Assembly (NCBI GenBank): GCA_903842595.1 | Contig: CAIMMO010000265.1 | Location: forward strand, 1 to 55,151 | Origin: an uncultured Alphaproteobacteria bacterium | GTDB lineage: Bacteria; Pseudomonadota; Alphaproteobacteria; Caulobacterales; Hyphomonadaceae | Length of the DNA stretch: 55,151 nucleotides | Direction of reading: 5' to 3' | In this document: positions 6,462 through 15,765 of the stretch, in pieces | Numbering within the stretch: position 1 is the first letter of the stretch | How the letters are laid out: every line of letters starts with the position of its first letter | Notes under the pieces: model-generated | Database searches by the model: none | The model's input: only the letters and a program-made list of their open reading frames with translations | Told to the model about the DNA's origin: nothing | Position numbers and translations under genes: made by a program

Positions 6462-6992
6462 TTATCGCTTGCGAAGGCCGGTCAGAACAGCTTCGGCAAG
6501 GCCCGACAGCGCCATCCGGACATCCTTGTCCTTCACCGGCGCCAGTTCCCGCACCAGCGCCGCACGCTGTTCGGGCGTGAGGGGGCGGGCGATGACAAGA
6601 GACAGTTGCTTGGGCGGCGCGGTCTGGATGATCTTGAGCGACGTGATCTTAGAGCCCGAGGCGATGTTCACCCGCTCCAGGATGTGCTCCTTCGAATGCT
6701 GGATGATGGGTGCCGCCGCAGAGGGCGCGCGCAGGTGAAGCACACTGCCGCCCTTGGTGCGGGACACACGCACCGGCTCGGTGATGGCGGCGAGCCGCAG
6801 CCCCACAATCTCGGGCCAGCGCGATTTCAGGGTTTCCGGCGCTGGTCCCGCATCCTTCAGGATCGGCCGCAGCGCCTTCTGCAGCGCAAAACCCATCGGC
6901 TTTGCAGGGCGATAGACAGGCACGGCATGGGCGGTCGCAAGGCGTTCTTCCGCCGCCCGCTCCCTTTCCAGTTCATCCCAGTCGATGGACAT
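6462..6992 (-). CDS. dciA: DUF721 protein, DciA-type helicase-loading factor
   Basis: This is a 176-residue DUF721 protein. The family includes DciA, which helps load or operate the replicative helicase DnaB in bacteria lacking DnaC. A charged N-terminus (SIDWDELERERAAEERL) leads into the domain core: a helix ending LKSRWPEIVGLRLAAITEPVRV and a strand pair with GGSVLHLRAPSA, then QHSKEHILERVN. The ATG at 6992 is preferred to one at 6998 because an AAGG lies seven bases before it. It is divergent from mutY across about 64 bases and upstream of the DsbA-like pair, the usual alphaproteobacterial order. The symbol follows family membership, not a test. Confidence 0.8.
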   Translation of the reverse strand: MSIDWDELERERAAEERLATAHAVPVYRPAKPMGFALQKALRPILKDAGPAPETLKSRWPEIVGLRLAAITEPVRVSRTKGGSVLHLRAPSAAAPIIQHSKEHILERVNIASGSKITSLKIIQTAPPKQLSLVIARPLTPEQRAALVRELAPVKDKDVRMALSGLAEAVLTGLRKR

Positions 6993-7056
6993 GGCCATAC
7001 CTTGCCAGTTTTCACGTTTCGTCGGAATGCCCCGTTGCACTTTGGTCCGGAGACGA

Positions 7057-8130
7057 ATGACCGCTAACAGCACCAGGAAGTTGCTCACAGCGGTGGATCG
7101 CTGGTACCGGCGCCATGCGCGGGTGCTGCCTTGGCGCGTCGGGCCGGCGGAGCGTGACGCAGGCTTTAGGCCCGATCCGTATCGCGTCTGGCTCAGCGAG
7201 GTGATGCTGCAGCAGACCACAATCCCCCACGCTACGCCGTATTTCGAGCGTTTCGTGGCGCGCTGGCCGGCGGTCGGAGCGCTGGCAGAGGCAAGCTGGG
7301 AGGATGTCTCGGCGGCATGGGCCGGGCTCGGGTATTACAGCCGCGCGCGCAACCTGCATGCCTGTGCAAAAGCCGTCGCCGCGTGTGGAAGCTTTCCACA
7401 GGACGCGACGAGCCTTCGTGAACTGCCGGGCGTCGGCCCGTACACCGCCGCAGCCATCGCTTCGATCGTATTTGACGAGCGCATCGCGCCGGTCGATGGC
7501 AATATCGAGCGTGTCGTCTCACGCCTGTGGGCCATTCCATCCGATCGAACCGAGGCAGGCTGGCGCGCTGCCAAAGTCGTGATCGCAACGCGTGCGCAGG
7601 AGCTGGCCGTCGCGTTGCCGAAGGGCGGACGCGCAGGCGACCTGGCGCAGGCGCTGATGGACCTCGGCGCAACGATCTGCACGCCAAAGAAACCGAACTG
7701 CCTGACATGTCCGCTCAACGTCATGTGCGCCGCGCGCGCCGAAGGCGCTCCCGAGCGCTACCCGATAAAGGCGGAGAAGCGCGCTGTGCCGACGCGATAC
7801 GGCTCGGCCTTTGTCCTGACGCGCGGACGTCAGATCATGCTGGTGCGGCGTCCGCCAGCGGGATTGCTCGGCGGGATGATGATGCCGCCAACGAGCGCTT
7901 GGACGGAACACAAGCTGCCTGACCCGCTGGCGGGCGCTCCCGGCGAGTTCGCCTGGGAGCATGTCGGCGAGATCCGTCATGTCTTCACGCACTTTGCCCT
8001 GAGACTGGATGTCTGGCGCGCCGCTGCGCCTGCGCGCGCGAAAACGGCGGGCGAATGGATGGCGAGCGACAGCGCGCTTGCGGCGATGCCGACAGTCGGT
8101 CGGAAAGCTGTCGCTCTGGCGATCCGATAA
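7057..8130 (+). CDS. mutY: A/G-specific adenine glycosylase MutY
   Basis: MutY removes adenine mispaired with 8-oxoguanine or G, starting base-excision repair. The 357 residues contain the catalytic Glu (E48 in SEVMLQQTTI), the helix-hairpin-helix LPGVGPYT (123-130), the catalytic Asp (D147 in VDGN), and a 4Fe-4S loop with spacing C-x6-C-x2-C-x5-C (C208, C215, C218, C224). The C-terminal half is the NUDIX-like 8-oxoG recognition domain (GSAFVLTRGRQIMLVRRPP, later HVFTHFALRLDVW). ATG 7057 gives the normal MutY N-terminus; an in-frame start 72 bases upstream would overlap dciA. It appears intact. Confidence 0.96.
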   Translation: MTANSTRKLLTAVDRWYRRHARVLPWRVGPAERDAGFRPDPYRVWLSEVMLQQTTIPHATPYFERFVARWPAVGALAEASWEDVSAAWAGLGYYSRARNLHACAKAVAACGSFPQDATSLRELPGVGPYTAAAIASIVFDERIAPVDGNIERVVSRLWAIPSDRTEAGWRAAKVVIATRAQELAVALPKGGRAGDLAQALMDLGATICTPKKPNCLTCPLNVMCAARAEGAPERYPIKAEKRAVPTRYGSAFVLTRGRQIMLVRRPPAGLLGGMMMPPTSAWTEHKLPDPLAGAPGEFAWEHVGEIRHVFTHFALRLDVWRAAAPARAKTAGEWMASDSALAAMPTVGRKAVALAIR

Positions 8131-8133
8131 GGC

Positions 8134-8826
8134 TTAGTGCGGAGCGGGAGCCGGTGTCGCCGGAGCAGCGCCAGGCGCGGGCGCTGTGCCATCTGCAGGC
8201 GCGGGCGTGGCGCCATCGACCGGCGGCGCGGCGCCGTCGACCGGAGCGGCGTCATCCGCGGGTGCGGCCGGAAGCGGGGCAGGGAGCGGAATGCTCTCGC
8301 CACCCAGCGTGCGCAGGTATGCGATGAGGTTCATCCGGTCCTCAAGACCGGTCACGCGGCTATTGATCCCGGCAAAGTTCATGATCGTGGCCGAGGCAAA
8401 GCCCTTCGGACGCTCGAGGAAAAGATTGAGGTTCTCGTAGGTCCAGGCGCCTTCGTGTTCAGAGAGAGAGCCTTCGCCGGCTGAGTATTTGAACCCAGCC
8501 ACCGATGCGATGTCGCGGTCGAGCACGCCATACAGCGGCGGGCCCTGCAGGATTGCGCCACCGGGGTCGAAGTTGTGGCACTGGACGCACTTCTTGTGCT
8601 GCTCTTCGCCTTTGGCAATGTCAGCGGCGGCCAGCAGCAAGCCGTAGTCGACGGGCCCCTCAACCGCTTCTTCTGCGACGGTCTCGGTCGGCACGTCGAC
8701 GGCATAGGCCGCACCTTCGTGCTTGGTCGTATGAAACAGCGAATGCGACGCCTCATTGATCCCGATCAGGGCGAGGCCGGTTCCGAGCACGCAGAACGCG
8801 ATCTTGTTGAAGCCCAGATCACTCAT
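8134..8826 (-). CDS. Membrane-anchored c-type cytochrome
   Basis: This is a 230-residue cytochrome c of the CycM / cytochrome c552 type. An uncleaved N-terminal anchor (residues 7-25) is followed by an acidic linker, the haem site CVQCH (80-84), and GPPLYGVLDRD typical of this family. M149 (ATIMNFAGI) is the likely sixth ligand, before the terminal helix LIAYLRTLGG. The last 45 residues are an Ala/Pro/Asp repeat tail. It likely carries electrons from the bc1 complex to a terminal oxidase at the periplasmic face. It is convergent with mutY (3 bases apart) and divergent from pheA, as in many alphaproteobacteria. Confidence 0.92.
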   Translation of the reverse strand: MSDLGFNKIAFCVLGTGLALIGINEASHSLFHTTKHEGAAYAVDVPTETVAEEAVEGPVDYGLLLAAADIAKGEEQHKKCVQCHNFDPGGAILQGPPLYGVLDRDIASVAGFKYSAGEGSLSEHEGAWTYENLNLFLERPKGFASATIMNFAGINSRVTGLEDRMNLIAYLRTLGGESIPLPAPLPAAPADDAAPVDGAAPPVDGATPAPADGTAPAPGAAPATPAPAPH

Positions 8827-9025
8827 GGGTTGGCCCTGCTCCAGTCCCTAGCGGACGCATGAACGGGCTCGATTCGAGCCCGCGCGCGCGAGGCTTTCTT
8901 GCATTTCAGCGCCAAGGCGGCAACCAGAGAGAGCCCGGCGAAATGACGCATAGTCCAGGCCGCTTTGCGCCAGCTAACCCCCTATTTCCGTTGCCATGTT
9001 CTGGGCGACACAGGCATACAGACCC

Positions 9026-9877
9026 ATGAGCAAGATCGCCTTCCAGGGGGAGCTGGGCGCCAACTCCCATATCGCGTGCCACGAGGTCTATCCGGATCTC
9101 GAGCCGATGCCGTGCCCGACCTTCGAGGATGTGTTCCAGGCGGCGGCCTCAGGCGAGGCGCAACTCGCCATGATCCCTGTGGAGAACTCCATTGCGGGCA
9201 GGGTGGCGGACATCCACCATCTGCTCCCCACCTCGCCACTGCAGATCATTGCCGAGCACTTCATGCCGATCCGCTTCCAGCTGATGGGCCTGAAAGGCTC
9301 ATCGCTCCAGCAGATCAAGGCCGCTCACAGCCACATCATGGGGCTGGGGCAATGCCGGAATTTCCTGCGGGCGCGGGGCATTCTCGCCCGCACCAGCTCC
9401 GACACAGCCGGCGCTGCCCGGGAGGTCCGCGACCTTGGCGACCCGACGCAGGCAGCGATCGCCCCGCGCCTCGCTGCGGAGGTCTACGGCCTCGATATCC
9501 TGGCCGAGAACATCGAGGATGCAGCCCACAACACCACGCGCTTCGTCATCATGAGCCGCGAGGCGAGCATGCCTGACAGGGGCGATGGGAAGGGGTGGGT
9601 CACGGCTTTCGTCTTCCGTGTCCGGAACGTGCCGTCTGCGCTTTACAAGGCGATGGGCGGGTTTGCGACCAACGGCGTCAACATGACCAAGCTCGAAAGC
9701 TACCAGATTGGCGGCTCGTTCTCGGCGACCCAGTTCTATGCGGAGGTCGAGGGCCATCCGGACGATGCCCCGCTGCAACGCGCGCTTGAGGAGTTGGGGT
9801 TCTTCTCGACGCAGGTTCGCCACCTCGGCGTGTTTGCCGCCCACCCCTACCGCACACGCGCAGCATCGTTCGGCTGA
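9026..9877 (+). CDS. pheA: Prephenate dehydratase
   Basis: This is a 283-residue stand-alone prephenate dehydratase, which converts prephenate to phenylpyruvate in phenylalanine synthesis. It starts MSKIAFQGELGANSHIA, the family signature, and contains NSIAGRVADIHHLL and the substrate-site NTTRFVIMSRE. A C-terminal ACT domain (residues about 190-275) has the Phe-binding segment GVNMTKLESYQIGG, implying feedback inhibition by phenylalanine. There is no chorismate mutase domain. No strong ribosome site precedes ATG 9026; an in-frame codon at 8996 is less likely. A 199-base gap separates it from the divergent cytochrome gene. Confidence 0.95.
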   Translation: MSKIAFQGELGANSHIACHEVYPDLEPMPCPTFEDVFQAAASGEAQLAMIPVENSIAGRVADIHHLLPTSPLQIIAEHFMPIRFQLMGLKGSSLQQIKAAHSHIMGLGQCRNFLRARGILARTSSDTAGAAREVRDLGDPTQAAIAPRLAAEVYGLDILAENIEDAAHNTTRFVIMSREASMPDRGDGKGWVTAFVFRVRNVPSALYKAMGGFATNGVNMTKLESYQIGGSFSATQFYAEVEGHPDDAPLQRALEELGFFSTQVRHLGVFAAHPYRTRAASFG

Positions 9878-10333
9878 GCCGGTAGCTAACTTACAAAGCC
9901 CAATCCCGGCCCAACCCGCGTCACATTTGGACGTTGGTGTGCGGCGTTGAAGCAAGGCGCTGCGACACGCCTCCGGGCCGAGACCCCCTGAAATCAGGAC
10001 GAATTCGGGTTGTCAAAGTATTCGATATGTATTCGTTCATGATGCTCAAGACGAAGACACCTTCCGGACACAATTTCTAACATCGACGAAGCCAAGAAGA
10101 CCTGGTGTTGCCAAGTAGTCACCCGGCGGGATTTAATCTCCGACTGCAGCGGAACTGGCTCGCGCCATAACCACTTAAGCTGCATATCGACCCGGCTGGG
10201 TGGATAGATGGCCGGCGACGGACGCCTTCTTCAGGTGGACGGCGCGGCCAGGACTGAAACCAGAGCTGGGTCTTACCGCCGGGATCACGCAATCCCCTCG
10301 GAACCCCGCTCCAGACAAACTGGAGTCTTCCCC
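9878..10333. other. 456-base intergenic segment, locally AT-richer
   Basis: No gene is recognised between pheA and the outer-membrane protein gene. About 10005-10140 is clearly richer in A and T than the surroundings. A 63-codon minus-strand frame (9994-10185) crosses it but shows no family character and no convincing ribosome site. The segment probably contains the promoter and untranslated leader of the outer-membrane protein gene at 10334. A small RNA or a remnant of transferred DNA is possible. Confidence 0.4.
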
Positions 10334-10813
10334 ATGAAACTGAAAATCGCTCTCGCCGCTGCGTCCATGCTTGTCGCGCCGGCCTTCATGACCGCCAACG
10401 CCCAGCAATCGGGCGTCTACGTTTCCGGCGGCTACACCTACTTCGACGGAGATGGCGGCGCTCAACTTGGCGGGATCACTGGCCGCGTCGGCGTTAACTT
10501 CACCCCGAACTTCGCCATCGAAGGCGAGGGCACGTTCGGCGTGACCGACGATTCGGGCACAGAGCTCGACAGCCAGTTCGGCGCCTATGTCGTCGGCAAG
10601 CTGCCGATCAACCCGCAGTTCGACGTGTTCGGCCGCGTGGGCGTCGCCCGTATCGAAACCTCGCCGGGTGGCGATGAAGACGGTCTCGCCTACGGGGCCG
10701 GCGCGCAGTGGAACCTGACATCGCAAGACGGCATCCGCGGCGACTGGACCCGTAACGACTTCGACGCCGGCGATGTGGACGCGTTCTCGCTGTCCTACGT
10801 CCGCAGCTTCTAG
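10334..10813 (+). CDS. Small outer-membrane beta-barrel protein (porin family)
   Basis: This is a 159-residue protein with a Sec signal peptide (MKLKIALAAASMLVAPAFMTANA, cleavage before QQSGVY). Alternating aromatic and Gly strands follow: SGVYVSGGYTYFDGD, GRVGVNFTPNFAIEGEGTFG, FGAYVVGKLPINPQFDVFGRVGVAR, GLAYGAGAQWNL. The end is SLSYVRSF, a terminal Phe that is the outer-membrane assembly signal. The pattern fits an eight-stranded barrel of the OmpA-beta-barrel / OMP_b-brl type. The function is unknown, probably structural or envelope related. It stands alone with its own strong terminator. Confidence 0.85.
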   Translation: MKLKIALAAASMLVAPAFMTANAQQSGVYVSGGYTYFDGDGGAQLGGITGRVGVNFTPNFAIEGEGTFGVTDDSGTELDSQFGAYVVGKLPINPQFDVFGRVGVARIETSPGGDEDGLAYGAGAQWNLTSQDGIRGDWTRNDFDAGDVDAFSLSYVRSF

Positions 10814-10850
10814 TCTGACTGCCCTCAGCAGGGCGCAGGTCTGAAACGAG

Positions 10851-10880
10851 ACACCCCGTGGTCGCCCCACGGGGTGTTTT
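10851..10880 (+). terminator. Rho-independent terminator
   Basis: An 11-base perfect stem (10851-10861 with 10866-10876, arms ACACCCCGTGG / CCACGGGGTGT in the slightly shifted pairing) closes a short loop. It is followed by TTTT, 38 bases after the stop of the outer-membrane protein gene. It should end that transcript. Confidence 0.85.
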
Positions 10881-10920
10881 CGCTTGAGCCGCCGTGCAAG
10901 GATCGGTGCGGGAGGCATGC

Positions 10921-11550
10921 ATGCCCGAGATTCGCATCACCCTGCTCGATCCTGCAGACGCAGTCGGGCTTCAACGCTGCTACGCCATCTATCGCGACGC
11001 GATCCTCAAATCCGAACAGCGCCCCGAAGCAGAATTCAAGGCTCTGTTCTTCAGGCCTGACTATCGCTTCCTCGTCGCTCGGATGGATGAGCAGATTGTC
11101 GGCGTCGCGGTGTCCTGGGCGCCGGAGCAGGCGGACTTCTGGCTATTCGAGTACGCCGCTGTCGCTCCTGAAGTGCGCGGCATGCAGATCGGCTCGCACC
11201 TCCTGCAGGCAAGCGTGGCGATCATTGGTCCGCAGCGCGTAACTCTGGTCGAGGTCGACGCCGACATGGGCTTGGACGAACAGGCGCGCTGCATGCGTTT
11301 CTACCAGCGTCTCGGCGCCCGCCGCCTGCGCGGCCTCAACTACATCCTGCCGCTGGATGCGTTCGGCACACCGCGGCCCTTGATCATGCTTGCGCTCACG
11401 CATCCAAGCGTCGGCGGCGTCTCGGTGATGATCCTGGAAGACTGGCTGCGGCGCATCTACCACGAGGTCTACGGCAAGGGCCTCGACGATCCGCGCCTCG
11501 CGAAGATGATCGATCCGCTGCCGGACCAGATTCAGTTTGACCCGATTTAA
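10921..11550 (+). CDS. GNAT-family N-acetyltransferase
   Basis: This is a 209-residue GNAT protein. The acetyl-CoA pyrophosphate loop is visible in YAAVAPEVRGMQIGSHLLQ (R/Q-x-x-G-x-G/A type), preceded by a beta-4 strand ADFWLFEYAAV and followed by the beta-5 and helix segment VTLVEVDADMG ... CMRFYQRLGARRL. The substrate cannot be read from the sequence; the C-terminal 60 residues are an extension not typical of minimal GNATs. The ATG at 10921 has a GGGAGG ribosome site at good spacing. Its stop overlaps the convergent nudC stop region by four bases. Confidence 0.85.
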   Translation: MPEIRITLLDPADAVGLQRCYAIYRDAILKSEQRPEAEFKALFFRPDYRFLVARMDEQIVGVAVSWAPEQADFWLFEYAAVAPEVRGMQIGSHLLQASVAIIGPQRVTLVEVDADMGLDEQARCMRFYQRLGARRLRGLNYILPLDAFGTPRPLIMLALTHPSVGGVSVMILEDWLRRIYHEVYGKGLDDPRLAKMIDPLPDQIQFDPI

Positions 11551-12530
11551 CCGCGCTCCAGCCATGCCTTGATGACGTGGTGGGCAATCGCAAACGCAGG
11601 TGGGGCGAAGGCGTCCGGATTTGTCCCCGCCATCATCGACCGCGCTTCTTGCCGGGTGAACCACTTCGCGGCTTCGATCTCCGTGGCGTCGATATTTATC
11701 GTGTCCCCGTCTGCCTCAAGGATCAGCCCGATCATCAGCGAGGACGGGAAGGGCCAGGGCTGGCAGAACAGGTAGTCGGCACGTGTCGTGCAGCGCACGC
11801 CAGCCTCTTCGAAGATCTCGCGCGCTGCCGCCTGCTCGATCGTCTCGCCGGGTTCGACGAAGCCGGCAAGGCACGACCAGAAGCCCGGCCGCCAGGCAGC
11901 CTGACGGCCAAGCAGGCACCTGTCATTATGTGTCGCCAGCATGATCGCGACCGGATCGACCCGCGGGAAATGTTCCGCGCCGCAATCCTCGCACTTCCGC
12001 TTCCACCCCGCGTCTTCGACCATGGTGCGCGTCCCGCAATTAGCGCAGAAGCCGTGCCGTCGATGCCATTCAAACAGCGCCCGCGCTGTCGCGGCAGCGC
12101 CTCCCTCGAACGGCGAGAAGGCCGAAGCTGCCGCGCGAAAATCCTCGAACACACCCAGTCCGGCGATCGGCGAACTATCGAGGCTGAACGAGGCGGGCAG
12201 CTCCAGCGCAAACACCGGCGAGCCCTTAACCGTCTCGCCAAGAAACAGACGCTGCGCCTTGGGGCTCAACATCGCCGCCTGCGCGCCAAGCCACAGGATA
12301 GGCCGCCCCGGCGCCAGGCGGGCGCCGATTTGCATCGGCCCCGATGGAGGCGCCGAACCTTCGACCAACGGCATGCCTTCGCGCATCAACAGGATCTGCG
12401 CGCTGTCGGACGCGATCGCGTCATCCAGCCACGTCTTGTCACGCCGGTGATGGGCGGCGCGGTCAAGCCCTGTCGGAACCAGCGGTATGTCGGCGGCGGC
12501 GCGTGACAGGGGCTCTTGCAAGGGGGGCAC
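11547..12530 (-). CDS. nudC: NAD(+)/NADH pyrophosphatase (NudC-type NUDIX hydrolase)
   Basis: This is a 327-residue NUDIX enzyme that hydrolyses NAD(H) to NMN(H) plus AMP and, in E. coli, removes NAD caps from RNA. Domains are an N-terminal NUDIX-like domain, a zinc ribbon (C162, C165, C180, C183), and the NUDIX box from G223 to V245 (GFVEPGET...REIFEEAGV). The family signature is CQPWPFPSS (256-264; the first residue is usually Ser). Translation starts at GTG 12530, which overlaps the stop of the upstream TIR gene as TAGTG, so it depends on translation of the TIR gene. It is convergent with the GNAT gene. Confidence 0.93.
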   Translation of the reverse strand: MPPLQEPLSRAAADIPLVPTGLDRAAHHRRDKTWLDDAIASDSAQILLMREGMPLVEGSAPPSGPMQIGARLAPGRPILWLGAQAAMLSPKAQRLFLGETVKGSPVFALELPASFSLDSSPIAGLGVFEDFRAAASAFSPFEGGAAATARALFEWHRRHGFCANCGTRTMVEDAGWKRKCEDCGAEHFPRVDPVAIMLATHNDRCLLGRQAAWRPGFWSCLAGFVEPGETIEQAAAREIFEEAGVRCTTRADYLFCQPWPFPSSLMIGLILEADGDTINIDATEIEAAKWFTRQEARSMMAGTNPDAFAPPAFAIAHHVIKAWLERG

Positions 12531-13216
12531 TAAAGCTTCCTGATATTGCCTCGGAAGCGCTCTATTGCACGCCGCTGCGCCAGCACGCCATAGGCGCCCA
12601 GCGTCAGCACGGTCAGCAGCTTGCGTCCCGCACCGCTCAGGCGCTGCACCGGCCTGCCATGCCCATCGGTCGGGCCCACATAGGCGCTCGCCTGCATCAG
12701 GGGTGCATGCACGGGATCGACCGTTTCGCGAATCATCGCGCCGATCGCAGCATCGAGCCGGCGCTCTTTCTCCTCGAACGATTCAGCGGGAGGCGGGGGC
12801 GGAGGGGCAGGAACCGCCAGCTTGCCGGCAAGCCGCGCCAGCAGGTCCGCCAACTCCTCGACCCGCGTCATGGGCTCGGGATGCGCCTCGACCCAGTTGC
12901 GGTCGGCCAGCAGATGCAGATAGCCGCCCTTGGGCTGGCCCTGCTCGATCAGGAACGGAACGACAGGCTTGCCGAGCGAATCCGCCAGCGCTGCCTGCCG
13001 CCGCATATGGTCGGTCCGATTGCATTCCTCAGAGAAGAGCACGGCGACAAGTTCGGCTTCCCGAATGGCTGTATCGACCTCGGCCTCGCTGCTGACCTCC
13101 GCCGGCAGCTTGGCGTCATACCAGACTGAAACCCCGCGCTCATCGAGATTGCGCGCCAGATATGCCGCCAGCTCCCGGTCGCCTCGTGCGAAAGAGATGA
13201 AGACGTCATGGCTCAT
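12530..13216 (-). CDS. TIR-domain protein coupled to nudC
   Basis: This is a 228-residue protein with an N-terminal TIR_2-type domain (residues 3-125): strand A DVFISFARGDRELA, BB-loop region VSVWYDAKLPAE, strand C LVAVLFSEE and strand D KPVVPFLIEQ. Bacterial TIR domains often cleave NAD+ using a Glu in the W-C-x-x-E helix; the aligned segment here is DHMRRQAA, with Gln at 74, so NADase activity is doubtful. A Pro-rich linker (137-144) leads to a basic C-terminus with a hydrophobic stretch (198-213) that could contact the membrane. ATG 13216 starts a two-gene operon with nudC. Defence, NAD signalling or a scaffold role are all possible. Confidence 0.82.
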   Translation of the reverse strand: MSHDVFISFARGDRELAAYLARNLDERGVSVWYDAKLPAEVSSEAEVDTAIREAELVAVLFSEECNRTDHMRRQAALADSLGKPVVPFLIEQGQPKGGYLHLLADRNWVEAHPEPMTRVEELADLLARLAGKLAVPAPPPPPPAESFEEKERRLDAAIGAMIRETVDPVHAPLMQASAYVGPTDGHGRPVQRLSGAGRKLLTVLTLGAYGVLAQRRAIERFRGNIRKL

Positions 13217-13332
13217 GCCGGCAGTGCTCCGTGTTCAGCCTGGAGGGCGGACCGCACGGGCGCCCCCGGTCTGACAGGAGATAATTCCATGACCAGCAAA
13301 GGCGTCCCCCGACGACTCATTCACCTCGAACA

Positions 13333-13361
13333 TTGCAGGGTGGCGCCTGACTTCCTATAAG
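13333..13361 (+). promoter_or_regulatory. Sigma70-type promoter of the SRP RNA
   Basis: TTGCAG (13333-13338) and TATAAG (13356-13361) are separated by 17 bases and lie five bases before the predicted 5' end of the SRP RNA. The spacing and position are canonical for a housekeeping promoter. Confidence 0.7.
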
Positions 13362-13365
13362 GAAA

Positions 13366-13461
13366 GTGCAGGCTGGTCGCGGACGGGCGGTTCGCCAACC
13401 CGGTCAGGTCCGGAAGGAAGCAGCCGTAACGAGTTTAGCTCGGGTCGTGGCCAGCCTGCAC
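13366..13461 (+). ncRNA. ffs: Signal recognition particle RNA (bacterial small type)
   Basis: The domain-IV core is present: GGTCAGGTCCGGAAGGAAGC at 13402-13421, containing the GGAA tetraloop, followed by AGCC. The ends pair over a long terminal stem: 13366-13376 (GTGCAGGCTGG) with 13451-13461 (CCAGCCTGCAC), 11 perfect base pairs. This RNA binds Ffh and FtsY for cotranslational membrane targeting. Total size is about 96 bases, as expected for the short bacterial form. It sits between the TIR gene (divergent) and dnaX; this placement near dnaX is common in alphaproteobacteria. Confidence 0.95.
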
Positions 13462-13546
13462 CTCACGCCATCTCATTCCACAGCAGATTCCAGAGGTTGG
13501 CTCCGCTAGGTTGGCGATTCGGCTGCTTGTGGGCCATATAGAACCC

Positions 13547-15442
13547 ATGGCCTCGAAGAAGCCTCCGAAACCGCCCGAAGATGGGCCTGTGGATGATGTT
13601 GCGGAACCCCGCGACACGCTTACCGCGTCCATGTTCGGCGATGATGTTCCGCTCGGCCCGCCCGCCTACCAGGTACTGGCCCGCAAATACCGCCCGACCC
13701 GGTTCGAGGACCTTGTCGGGCAGGAGGCCATGGTCCGCACGCTCACCAATGCGTTCAGGACCGGCCGCATCGCGCACGCCTTCATGCTCACCGGCGTCCG
13801 CGGCGTCGGCAAGACGACCACAGCGCGCCTGCTGGCGAGGGCGCTGAACTACGAAACAGCCGAGGTCCACCAACCGTCGATGCAGCTTGACCCGCCAGGC
13901 GTGCACTGTGCAGCCATCATGGAAGGCCGTCACCCCGACGTGCTCGAACTCGACGCTGCCTCCAACACCGGCATCGACAACATGCGCGACCTGCTGACCG
14001 GCGCGCGCTACGCGCCTGTCAATGCGCGCTACAAGGTCTACATCATCGACGAAGTGCACATGCTCTCGACTGCAGCATTCAACGCGCTGCTGAAGACGCT
14101 GGAAGAGCCGCCGCCACATGTGAAGTTCATCTTTGCGACGACCGAGATCCGGAAAGTCCCCGTCACCGTCCTGTCGCGTTGCCAGCGATTCAACCTGCAG
14201 CGCTTCTCGCCTGAAGCGCTCGCCGATCATCTCGGCAAAATCAGTGCGAAGGAGGGAGCCAACGTCGCGCCCGAGGCTCTCGCGCTGATCGCGCGCGCCG
14301 CCGAAGGCTCGGCGCGCGACGGCCTTTCAATTCTCGATCAGGCCATCGTCCAGGGGGGTGGCGACACCGGGGGTAAGCAGGTAACCGCGGACCAGGTCCG
14401 CGACATGCTCGGCCTCGCCGACCGTTCGCGCGTGCTCGACCTGATGGACCGCATCATTGCTGCCGATCACAAGTCCGCACTCAATGAGGCGACCGCGCTT
14501 CTCGATCAGGGCGCCGATGCGCCGGTGCTGATCAAGGACCTGATGGATGTGGTCGTCGAAGTCTCACGCGCACAGGCCCTGAAGGATGGCTACGTTTTTT
14601 CTGGCCCGTCCGAATGGGGCAAGCGCACCATCGCGATGGCGGGGCAGGTCTCGCCCGCGCAGTCCGCCCGCATGTGGCGGCTGCTCCTGCAAGGCTTCGA
14701 AGATTGCGCTCGCGCGCCCGATCCGCCGTCCGCTGCGCAGATGGTGGTGTTGCGACTTGCCGCGGTCACTGGCCTCCCGTCTCCTGAAGACGCGGCGCGC
14801 ATGCTAGCGGGCGGGGCCGCCGTGCCCGGCCCAAAGTCCCAGCCTGAACCGTCCCGCGCGCCCGAGCGCGCCGACGCCCCCACCGCCACGGCCCTCCCGC
14901 CGCCACCGGCCAGGCCGGTTGCTATGGCCCCACCATCTCACGTCGACGATCATGGCGAGGTTGTCCGTCTCTCATCCCTCCGCGAGATCGTCGCGGAACT
15001 CGACGCCCGCCGCGAGATTGCGCTCAAATACGAGATCGAGCGCTTTGTGCGCCCGGCAGAGATCGATTTCGGTCACTTTCGCTACACAGCAGCGCCGAAC
15101 GCGCCGAATAATCTCTCACAGCGCATCAAGGACTGGCTCGAAGAGGTCACCGGCGTCGAATGGGACGTGCTGCAGTCCACCGACGGCTCGGCCGAAAGCG
15201 TCAAGGAACGCCGCACACGCCGCGGCACCGAAAAGCTGCAGTCCGCCGCGGCCATCCCGCGCATCGCCGAGGCGCTACGGCTTTTTCCTGGCGCCCAGGT
15301 GCTGCGTGTTGACGAGGCAGAGCAGGCCGACGACCTTGATGATCTGGCCCCGCAGCACAACGTCATACATGTCGATTTCGGCCTGCGTGAGCGCGCCGAG
15401 GAAATGATCCCCGATCCCGATGAGCGTGAGGACGACGAATGA
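13547..15442 (+). CDS. dnaX: DNA polymerase III subunits gamma/tau
   Basis: This is the 631-residue clamp-loader ATPase. The N-terminal AAA+ module has KYRPTRFEDLVGQEAMVRTL, Walker A GVRGVGKTTTARLL, Walker B IIDEVHML, sensor 1 FATTE and the arginine-finger SRCQRF. The middle domain III is followed by a Pro/Ala-rich linker (about 425-470) and a tau-type C-terminal domain. The segment that normally holds four zinc-binding cysteines after Walker A (NYETAEVHQP...GVHCAAIMEG) keeps only one Cys. ATG 13547 lacks a strong ribosome site; an in-frame TTG at 13511 is the alternative. The stop overlaps ebfC as ATGA. Confidence 0.96.
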   Translation: MASKKPPKPPEDGPVDDVAEPRDTLTASMFGDDVPLGPPAYQVLARKYRPTRFEDLVGQEAMVRTLTNAFRTGRIAHAFMLTGVRGVGKTTTARLLARALNYETAEVHQPSMQLDPPGVHCAAIMEGRHPDVLELDAASNTGIDNMRDLLTGARYAPVNARYKVYIIDEVHMLSTAAFNALLKTLEEPPPHVKFIFATTEIRKVPVTVLSRCQRFNLQRFSPEALADHLGKISAKEGANVAPEALALIARAAEGSARDGLSILDQAIVQGGGDTGGKQVTADQVRDMLGLADRSRVLDLMDRIIAADHKSALNEATALLDQGADAPVLIKDLMDVVVEVSRAQALKDGYVFSGPSEWGKRTIAMAGQVSPAQSARMWRLLLQGFEDCARAPDPPSAAQMVVLRLAAVTGLPSPEDAARMLAGGAAVPGPKSQPEPSRAPERADAPTATALPPPPARPVAMAPPSHVDDHGEVVRLSSLREIVAELDARREIALKYEIERFVRPAEIDFGHFRYTAAPNAPNNLSQRIKDWLEEVTGVEWDVLQSTDGSAESVKERRTRRGTEKLQSAAAIPRIAEALRLFPGAQVLRVDEAEQADDLDDLAPQHNVIHVDFGLRERAEEMIPDPDEREDDE

Positions 15443-15765
15443 AAGACCTGTCCGACATCATGCGCCAGGCGCAGCAAATGCAGCAGCGCCTGCAGGAAGC
15501 GCAGGAGCGCATGGACCAGATCACGGCCGAGGGCTCCTCGGGCGGCGGCATGGTCAAGGTGACCCTGAAGGGTAAGGGCGAACTGCATGCGCTCGCAATC
15601 GATCCAACCATCATGAACCCGGGCGACAGGGAAATGGTGGAAGACCTCGTCAAGGCCGCGCACTCTGACGCCCGCCGCAAGCTGGATGATGCAATGGCCG
15701 ACGCCATGAAGCAGGCGACCGGCGGCCTCGGCGGTATGCTCCCCGGCTTCAAGCTGCCGTTTTGA
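15439..15765 (+). CDS. ebfC: YbaB/EbfC nucleoid-associated protein
   Basis: This is a 108-residue DNA-binding protein of the YbaB/EbfC family, a homodimer that coats and compacts the nucleoid. The family pattern is clear: an N-terminal helix rich in Gln (IMRQAQQMQQRLQEAQERM), the strand GGGMVKVTLKGKGELHALAID, and the C-terminal helix DLVKAAHSDARRKLDDAMADAM. Its ATG overlaps the dnaX stop (ATGA), a widespread operon. The usual third gene, recR, does not follow. Confidence 0.94.
   Translation: MKDLSDIMRQAQQMQQRLQEAQERMDQITAEGSSGGGMVKVTLKGKGELHALAIDPTIMNPGDREMVEDLVKAAHSDARRKLDDAMADAMKQATGGLGGMLPGFKLPF

Follow-up and report, generated by a model that had tools for sequence, protein, structure and literature searches.

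The TIR–nudC locus

The window is the whole stretch of DNA analysed here, 55,151 nucleotides from an uncultured member of the Hyphomonadaceae, and it carries a TIR-domain gene immediately in front of nudC, both on the (-) strand. The TIR gene (12530..13216) is an open reading frame with an ATG start that encodes 228 amino acids, the short form of two that occur among the relatives. It belongs to Pfam family TIR_2 (PF13676), with an E value of 2.1e-16 and 60.9 bits against a gathering score of 28, and a TIR protein 98% identical to it is present in a public genome labelled Hyphomonadaceae. The nudC gene (11547..12530) has a GTG start and encodes an NAD(+) diphosphatase of 327 amino acids. It is a member of NCBIfam NF001299 (NAD(+) diphosphatase) at 192.5 bits, the cut-off being 158, and all three NudC domains are matched: NUDIX, the NADH pyrophosphatase zinc ribbon and NUDIX-like. 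We regard NudC as a housekeeping enzyme of the usual kind, a pyrophosphatase for NAD(H) and NAD-RNA, and its gene in the window is ordinary but for the Shine-Dalgarno-like sequence that it borrows from the TIR gene. At its far end, nudC is convergent with a GNAT gene (10894-11550). The two tails overlap by four bases, TTAA (11547-11550), and both genes stop at TAA.

The TIR stop codon TAG (12530-12532) and the nudC start GTG (12528-12530) have one base in common within TAGTG (12528..12532, (-) strand), just as an earlier sequence-only reading of this DNA had described. The Shine-Dalgarno-like sequence for nudC, AGGAAG (12536..12541, (-) strand), lies within the final TIR codons, in the Arg-Lys of NIRKL. 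Flanking the TIR gene at its other end are the older neighbours. The ffs gene for the bacterial small SRP RNA (13367..13463, (+) strand) is 150 bases upstream of TIR on the opposite strand, and beyond it come dnaX (13511..15442, (+) strand) and then ybaB. The end of dnaX at 15442 and the start of ybaB at 15439 produce an overlap of 4 bases.

The TIR defence profiles of PADLOC (PDC-S66, SAVED-TIR, Argonaute-associated TIR and Thoeris ThsB) are matched weakly, and in the TIR part only. For PDC-S66, the window TIR gives an E value of 5.9e-8, and all 11 long forms match as well, the best at 1.2e-11. The locus differs from the PADLOC systems in that no SIR2, SLOG or macro-domain partner is found among the eight neighbours scanned, mutY to ybaB. 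Thoeris is defined by a ThsA-type effector beside the TIR gene (also in PMC11204291), and no such effector is found among the eight Pfam-scanned proteins of positions 6985-15765 (the ORF at 10208-10813 is not one of them).

Long and short forms of the TIR protein

Each of the 11 long forms, 323-400 residues as aligned, has a TIR domain followed by a linker and then by three or four hydrophobic segments. Past residue 130, four such segments are found in 8 of them and three in the other 3, and Pfam has no family for this membrane part at an E value of 0.001. The seven short forms, the window copy included, align with both ends of the long forms and are without three of the membrane segments. Five have no hydrophobic segment past residue 130, and two have one weak segment. 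The best 19-residue Kyte-Doolittle mean is 1.12 in the window TIR versus 1.96-2.75 in the 11 long forms. What is left in the window at 12533..12634 ((-) strand) is a residual last hydrophobic segment and the conserved F-x-x-N-I-R-K-L end of the protein, and this segment, as aligned, is the remnant of a membrane domain with three or four segments.

All 11 long forms match TIR_2, as the window TIR does, but the window copy has neither the Glu nor the Asp-Trp-Arg found in every one of these relatives. Asp47-Trp48-Arg49 (G011 numbering) is gone from all seven short forms. At the Glu column, every one of the 11 long forms has Glu, as do three of the seven short ones (G004, G005 and G009). The other four differ: G007 has Leu, G013 has Met, and Gln stands in G001 and in the window (codon 74, CAG, 12995..12997, (-) strand). 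This distribution of residues on the tree points to at least two losses. Glu is also found in all 10 of the other TIRs that we chose for the alignment; the alignment is without the row G021b, which has Glu, and without the chosen TIRs L004 and L033. We take this column to be that of the catalytic Glu of the TIR motif, as the alignment places it. Its position rests on multiple alignments because the four structure alignments shown end before the Glu, although the long forms, searched against the sequences of solved structures, do match known TIR structures, for example AbTIR at an E value of 3.8e-6. AlphaFold2 with the single window TIR sequence and no alignment as input gave a mean pLDDT of 43.6, which is too poor for placing the active site.

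The Glu is required for TIR NADase and NAD-cap activity, according to PMC10937652. The conserved catalytic Glu expected of NAD-cleaving TIR enzymes is Gln74 in the window. We infer that the window TIR lacks NADase activity, and the gene is predicted to be a non-catalytic pseudo-TIR.

The TIR–nudC junction

TIR stands directly before nudC at 14 of the loci read, and at 12 of these the junction is tight, by which we mean an overlap or a gap of at most 6 nt. Six of the 14 have TAGTG (the window, G001, G005, G007, G009 and G013), and in five others nudC starts 1-6 nt past the TIR stop. The partial locus of G012 is a sixth gapped case, its 4-nt gap being deduced from the reading frames. The exceptions are G023, with about 25 nt between the genes, and G004, with at least about 80 nt; the start codons of the relatives are our assignments. 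TAGTG occurs in six of the seven short forms and in none of the long ones. We rejected the overlap by itself as proof of function; dnaX and ybaB have a similar one. The overlap in the window is more than chance because the junction is kept beside TIR genes that have diverged.

AGGAAG is found within the last TIR codons in all 11 complete TIR ends of the window's genus. The codons are ATC AGG AAG in 10 of them and CTC AGG AAG in G004; the partial twelfth end, that of G012, has Lys at the Arg position. AGG is a rare Arg codon: it accounts for 45 of 947 (4.8%) in the available parts of the housekeeping genes dnaX, nudC, pheA and ybaB from 12 genomes of this genus, and for 16 of 237 (6.8%) in the remainder of the TIR ORFs, counts that are not independent because the genomes are related. 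The GTG follows the end of AGGA at a distance of 7 bases where the two genes overlap and of 9-12 bases in the genus's four complete long forms. The ffs–TIR and ffs–nudC gaps were aligned for a promoter comparison, of which the distances alone were used. Coupling of TIR and nudC is thus supported by the sequence and conserved, and ribosomes finishing the TIR ORF most likely restart at nudC. The proposal that both proteins are made together has in this way gained a conserved junction and an embedded Shine-Dalgarno-like sequence, from which actual translational coupling is what we infer.

Gene order among the relatives

A search for nudC in 101 relatives found it in 100 of them. We read the regions round 58 of the resulting places, in the family and the order, besides the window, for a total of 59 nudC loci. 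TIR was scored as absent when tblastn with the window and G011 TIRs as queries gave no match at an E value of 1e-5. The 14 adjacent pairs are those of G020, of G023 and of 12 genomes out of 15 in the window's genus (including partial G012, with ffs out of view). At three further loci, in three genomes of the sister genus g6, TIR lies beyond ffs from nudC. The g6 TIR sits between dnaX and ffs, so that ffs, which is on the other strand, stands between it and nudC. At one more locus, that of G006, the contig stops at the start of nudC. At 41 of the 59 loci, there is no TIR in the stretch read at the above threshold; these include G002 and G014 of the window's own genus, which have kept nudC. The ffs gene is upstream of nudC at 30 of the 41, with dnaX further out at 20, and neither gene is in the stretch read at 11. 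We take dnaX–ffs–nudC without TIR to be the older order. TIR and nudC thus do not stay together across the relatives, and in most of them nudC has other neighbours, an outcome that the sequence-only reading had itself named as refuting its proposal. The other outcome that it named, a pair confined to this strain or to close relatives without conserved coupling, is not what the loci show, with 12 tight junctions out of 14.

Descent and rate of change

In a combined species tree made from NudC, DnaX, PheA and YbaB, all genomes with TIR at the locus fall in one clade with 100% support, which also holds G002 and G014, without TIR, and G006, whose contig ends too early. The short forms and G006 make up one clade at 74%, and in the TIR tree the short forms are grouped at 97%. 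The log likelihood of the TIR tree is -2424.2 when free versus -2426.6 on the species topology, compared without a formal test. The TIR tree is barely better than the species topology and therefore fits vertical inheritance.

The rate comparison covers the 16 genomes with TIR at or near the locus, leaving out partial G012 and the copies of g8 and G487. With the species topology fixed, the TIR-domain branches of the short clade add up to 2.73 substitutions per site and all the others to 1.81; for NudC, the two sums are 0.74 and 4.09, respectively. The relative rate of TIR versus NudC thus shifts 8.9-fold in the short clade, with a 95% range of 6.6-12.1 from 50 bootstraps. Recombination or tree error could distort these rates because the NudC tree itself conflicts with the combined tree (log likelihood -5132.0 free versus -5198.9 constrained), for example by grouping G013 with G003 at 95%.

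Ratios of dN/dS were obtained for 11 pairs of our choosing, three long-form and eight short-form, several of them with dS above 1. For the TIR domain, they are 0.04-0.13 in the long-form pairs versus 0.14-0.47 in the short-form pairs. For the whole gene, 0.06-0.40 in the long pairs and 0.19-0.57 in the short pairs give no clean separation, because the linkers vary in the long forms too.

Role of the TIR gene

The window TIR is probably a non-catalytic protein, inherited vertically with decay in its subclade and kept under weaker purifying selection. An accessory membrane TIR gene, presumably of defence-type origin, would have entered the dnaX–ffs–nudC neighbourhood in the ancestor of one Hyphomonadaceae clade and would have been passed on vertically ever since. 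The common ancestor of genera g1, g7 and g10 would have had it between ffs and nudC, where it replaced the leader of nudC. Because TIR sat in place of that leader, translation of nudC would have passed to ribosomes that complete the TIR ORF, with the Shine-Dalgarno sequence embedded in the C-terminal TIR codons aiding that translation. In the window's subclade, three membrane segments and Asp-Trp-Arg would have been lost, and the junction would have tightened from a 1-4 nt gap to the 1-nt overlap, G004 excepted. The catalytic Glu would have disappeared in two lineages, the window's among them. What selection now keeps would be a binding or assembly role of the protein, and the gene would have a cis role in nudC expression besides. 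For the TIR-DrHyd-SLOG domain class, PMC9503650 describes inactive members that act as sensors of nucleotides.

Alternatively, the TIR ORF could be nothing but a translated leader for nudC, its frame kept for coupling and its protein without function. The degenerate clade does have the tightest junction along with the embedded Shine-Dalgarno-like sequence, and its TIR diverges very fast. Moreover, between the window and G001, both with Gln, constraint is not clearly visible when the TIR domain is taken by itself; its 3 synonymous and 3 nonsynonymous differences (dN/dS 0.33) are too few to show it. However, keeping the frame alone would not preserve amino acids, and the window protein still matches TIR_2. 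Over the whole gene, the window and G001 differ by 9 synonymous and 5 nonsynonymous changes, 14 in all, for a dN/dS of 0.19 (Fisher p 0.003). The pair G007 and G013, both without the Glu, has 0.21 (Fisher p 1.3e-19) and also 0.21 in the TIR domain alone. Both p values are approximate, with site numbers back-calculated from rounded proportions. Constraint has fallen but has not vanished, since the pairs without the Glu are still at a whole-gene dN/dS of about 0.2, and we think a pure leader unlikely.

The sequence-only reading had instead proposed a self-contained NAD-based switch, in which TIR would break down NAD+ or NAD caps or produce an ADPR signal, while NudC, translated along with it, would remove or process what TIR makes. 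In its favour are the adjacency of the genes in three genera, the tight junctions and the Glu retained by the complete long-form TIRs adjoining nudC. There is some chemical support in PMC10937652, which describes in vitro NAD-RNA decapping by AbTir and NudC, the same two protein types. AbTir makes cyclic-ADPR-capped RNA, and this product is a substrate that NudC decaps further. However, the activity depends on the catalytic Glu, which the window TIR has lost, and the passages covered do not use the word operon. Against the switch are also the g6 TIR across ffs, the nudC genes retained without TIR in G002 and G014, the TIR-membrane genes of g8 and G487 without nudC in the 9-12 kb read, and the absence of a matching acceleration in NudC. 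The window itself does not support it, with Gln74 in place of the Glu and Asp-Trp-Arg gone. With most of the membrane part and the catalytic residue missing from the window TIR, an NAD-burning switch is an unlikely role for the pair in this genome, and as a general account we regard the switch as improbable. In the long-form relatives, a chemical pathway through TIR and NudC is possible. The fuller version is very improbable: a membrane NAD-cap pathway in the long forms, where TIR takes nicotinamide off NAD or NAD-RNA and NudC cleaves the ADPR-type product, with the window TIR as a non-catalytic sensor of the product that controls NudC through the protein and through coupling. No account of a TIR–nudC gene pair came up in the literature searched, which leaves most subscription journals outside, in line with the earlier statement that no standard description of it was known.

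Finally, the acceleration in the short clade could be partly adaptive. A short TIR that is a new sensor or decoy under diversifying selection, as in a phage arms race, has the 8.9-fold shift and the repeatedly changed active-site positions in its favour. We give it very little credence, as none of the 11 pairs reaches a TIR-domain dN/dS of 0.5, though values go up to 0.73 in the remainder of the protein (pairwise values, not site-level ones).

On the reading we prefer, the TIR gene is most likely of immune type, settled long ago, within a single bacterial family, ahead of a housekeeping gene for NAD processing. One chromosomal place then offers a stepwise series from a full membrane TIR to a truncated one to one without the catalytic Glu, with the adjoining housekeeping nudC as a yardstick for the decay. 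The series allows a test of whether a decaying immune-type gene is kept for its neighbour's translation or the pseudo-TIR is functional. It is also a warning that finding TIR and an NAD enzyme in one operon is, taken alone, no evidence for an NAD-based switch.

TIR genes elsewhere

A profile of the TIR-membrane protein matches 21 of 105 family genomes at an E value of 1e-25, a count that includes matches to the TIR part in other proteins. In wider TIR searches, 5 of 385 genomes of the class match at 1e-20 and 12 of 299 genomes of the order at 1e-25. The TIR-membrane genes of g8 (G021 and G029) and of G487 have no nudC within the 9-12 kb read around them. A mobile origin of TIR was tried and set aside after a search of a plasmid collection, in which the window TIR had no match and one long form had two weak matches in the TIR part. 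A partner paralogue in the window's own genome was likewise rejected, the window copy alone matching at 1e-25 in an assembly that is 91% complete. That genome has four further TIR-like places, all weak (7.5e-11 or worse), and a second TIR-like place (L002, G000:C138:68314-68733) has two in-frame stops inside the match.

G029 has a tandem pair of long-form TIR-membrane genes (L095:3335-5562) on a different contig from nudC. Three TIR genes on the same strand, 2-3 bases apart, occur in G222 and G325 of another family of the class (L164:3900-6593 and L165:3073-5768). Within their first 70 residues, the IEGGADWR region is apparently intact in the middle gene and degenerate in both flanking ones. 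Several genomes of the window's genus have another TIR family away from the nudC locus (L023, L024, L028, L029 and L030), with the Glu kept and C-terminal parts several hundred residues long.
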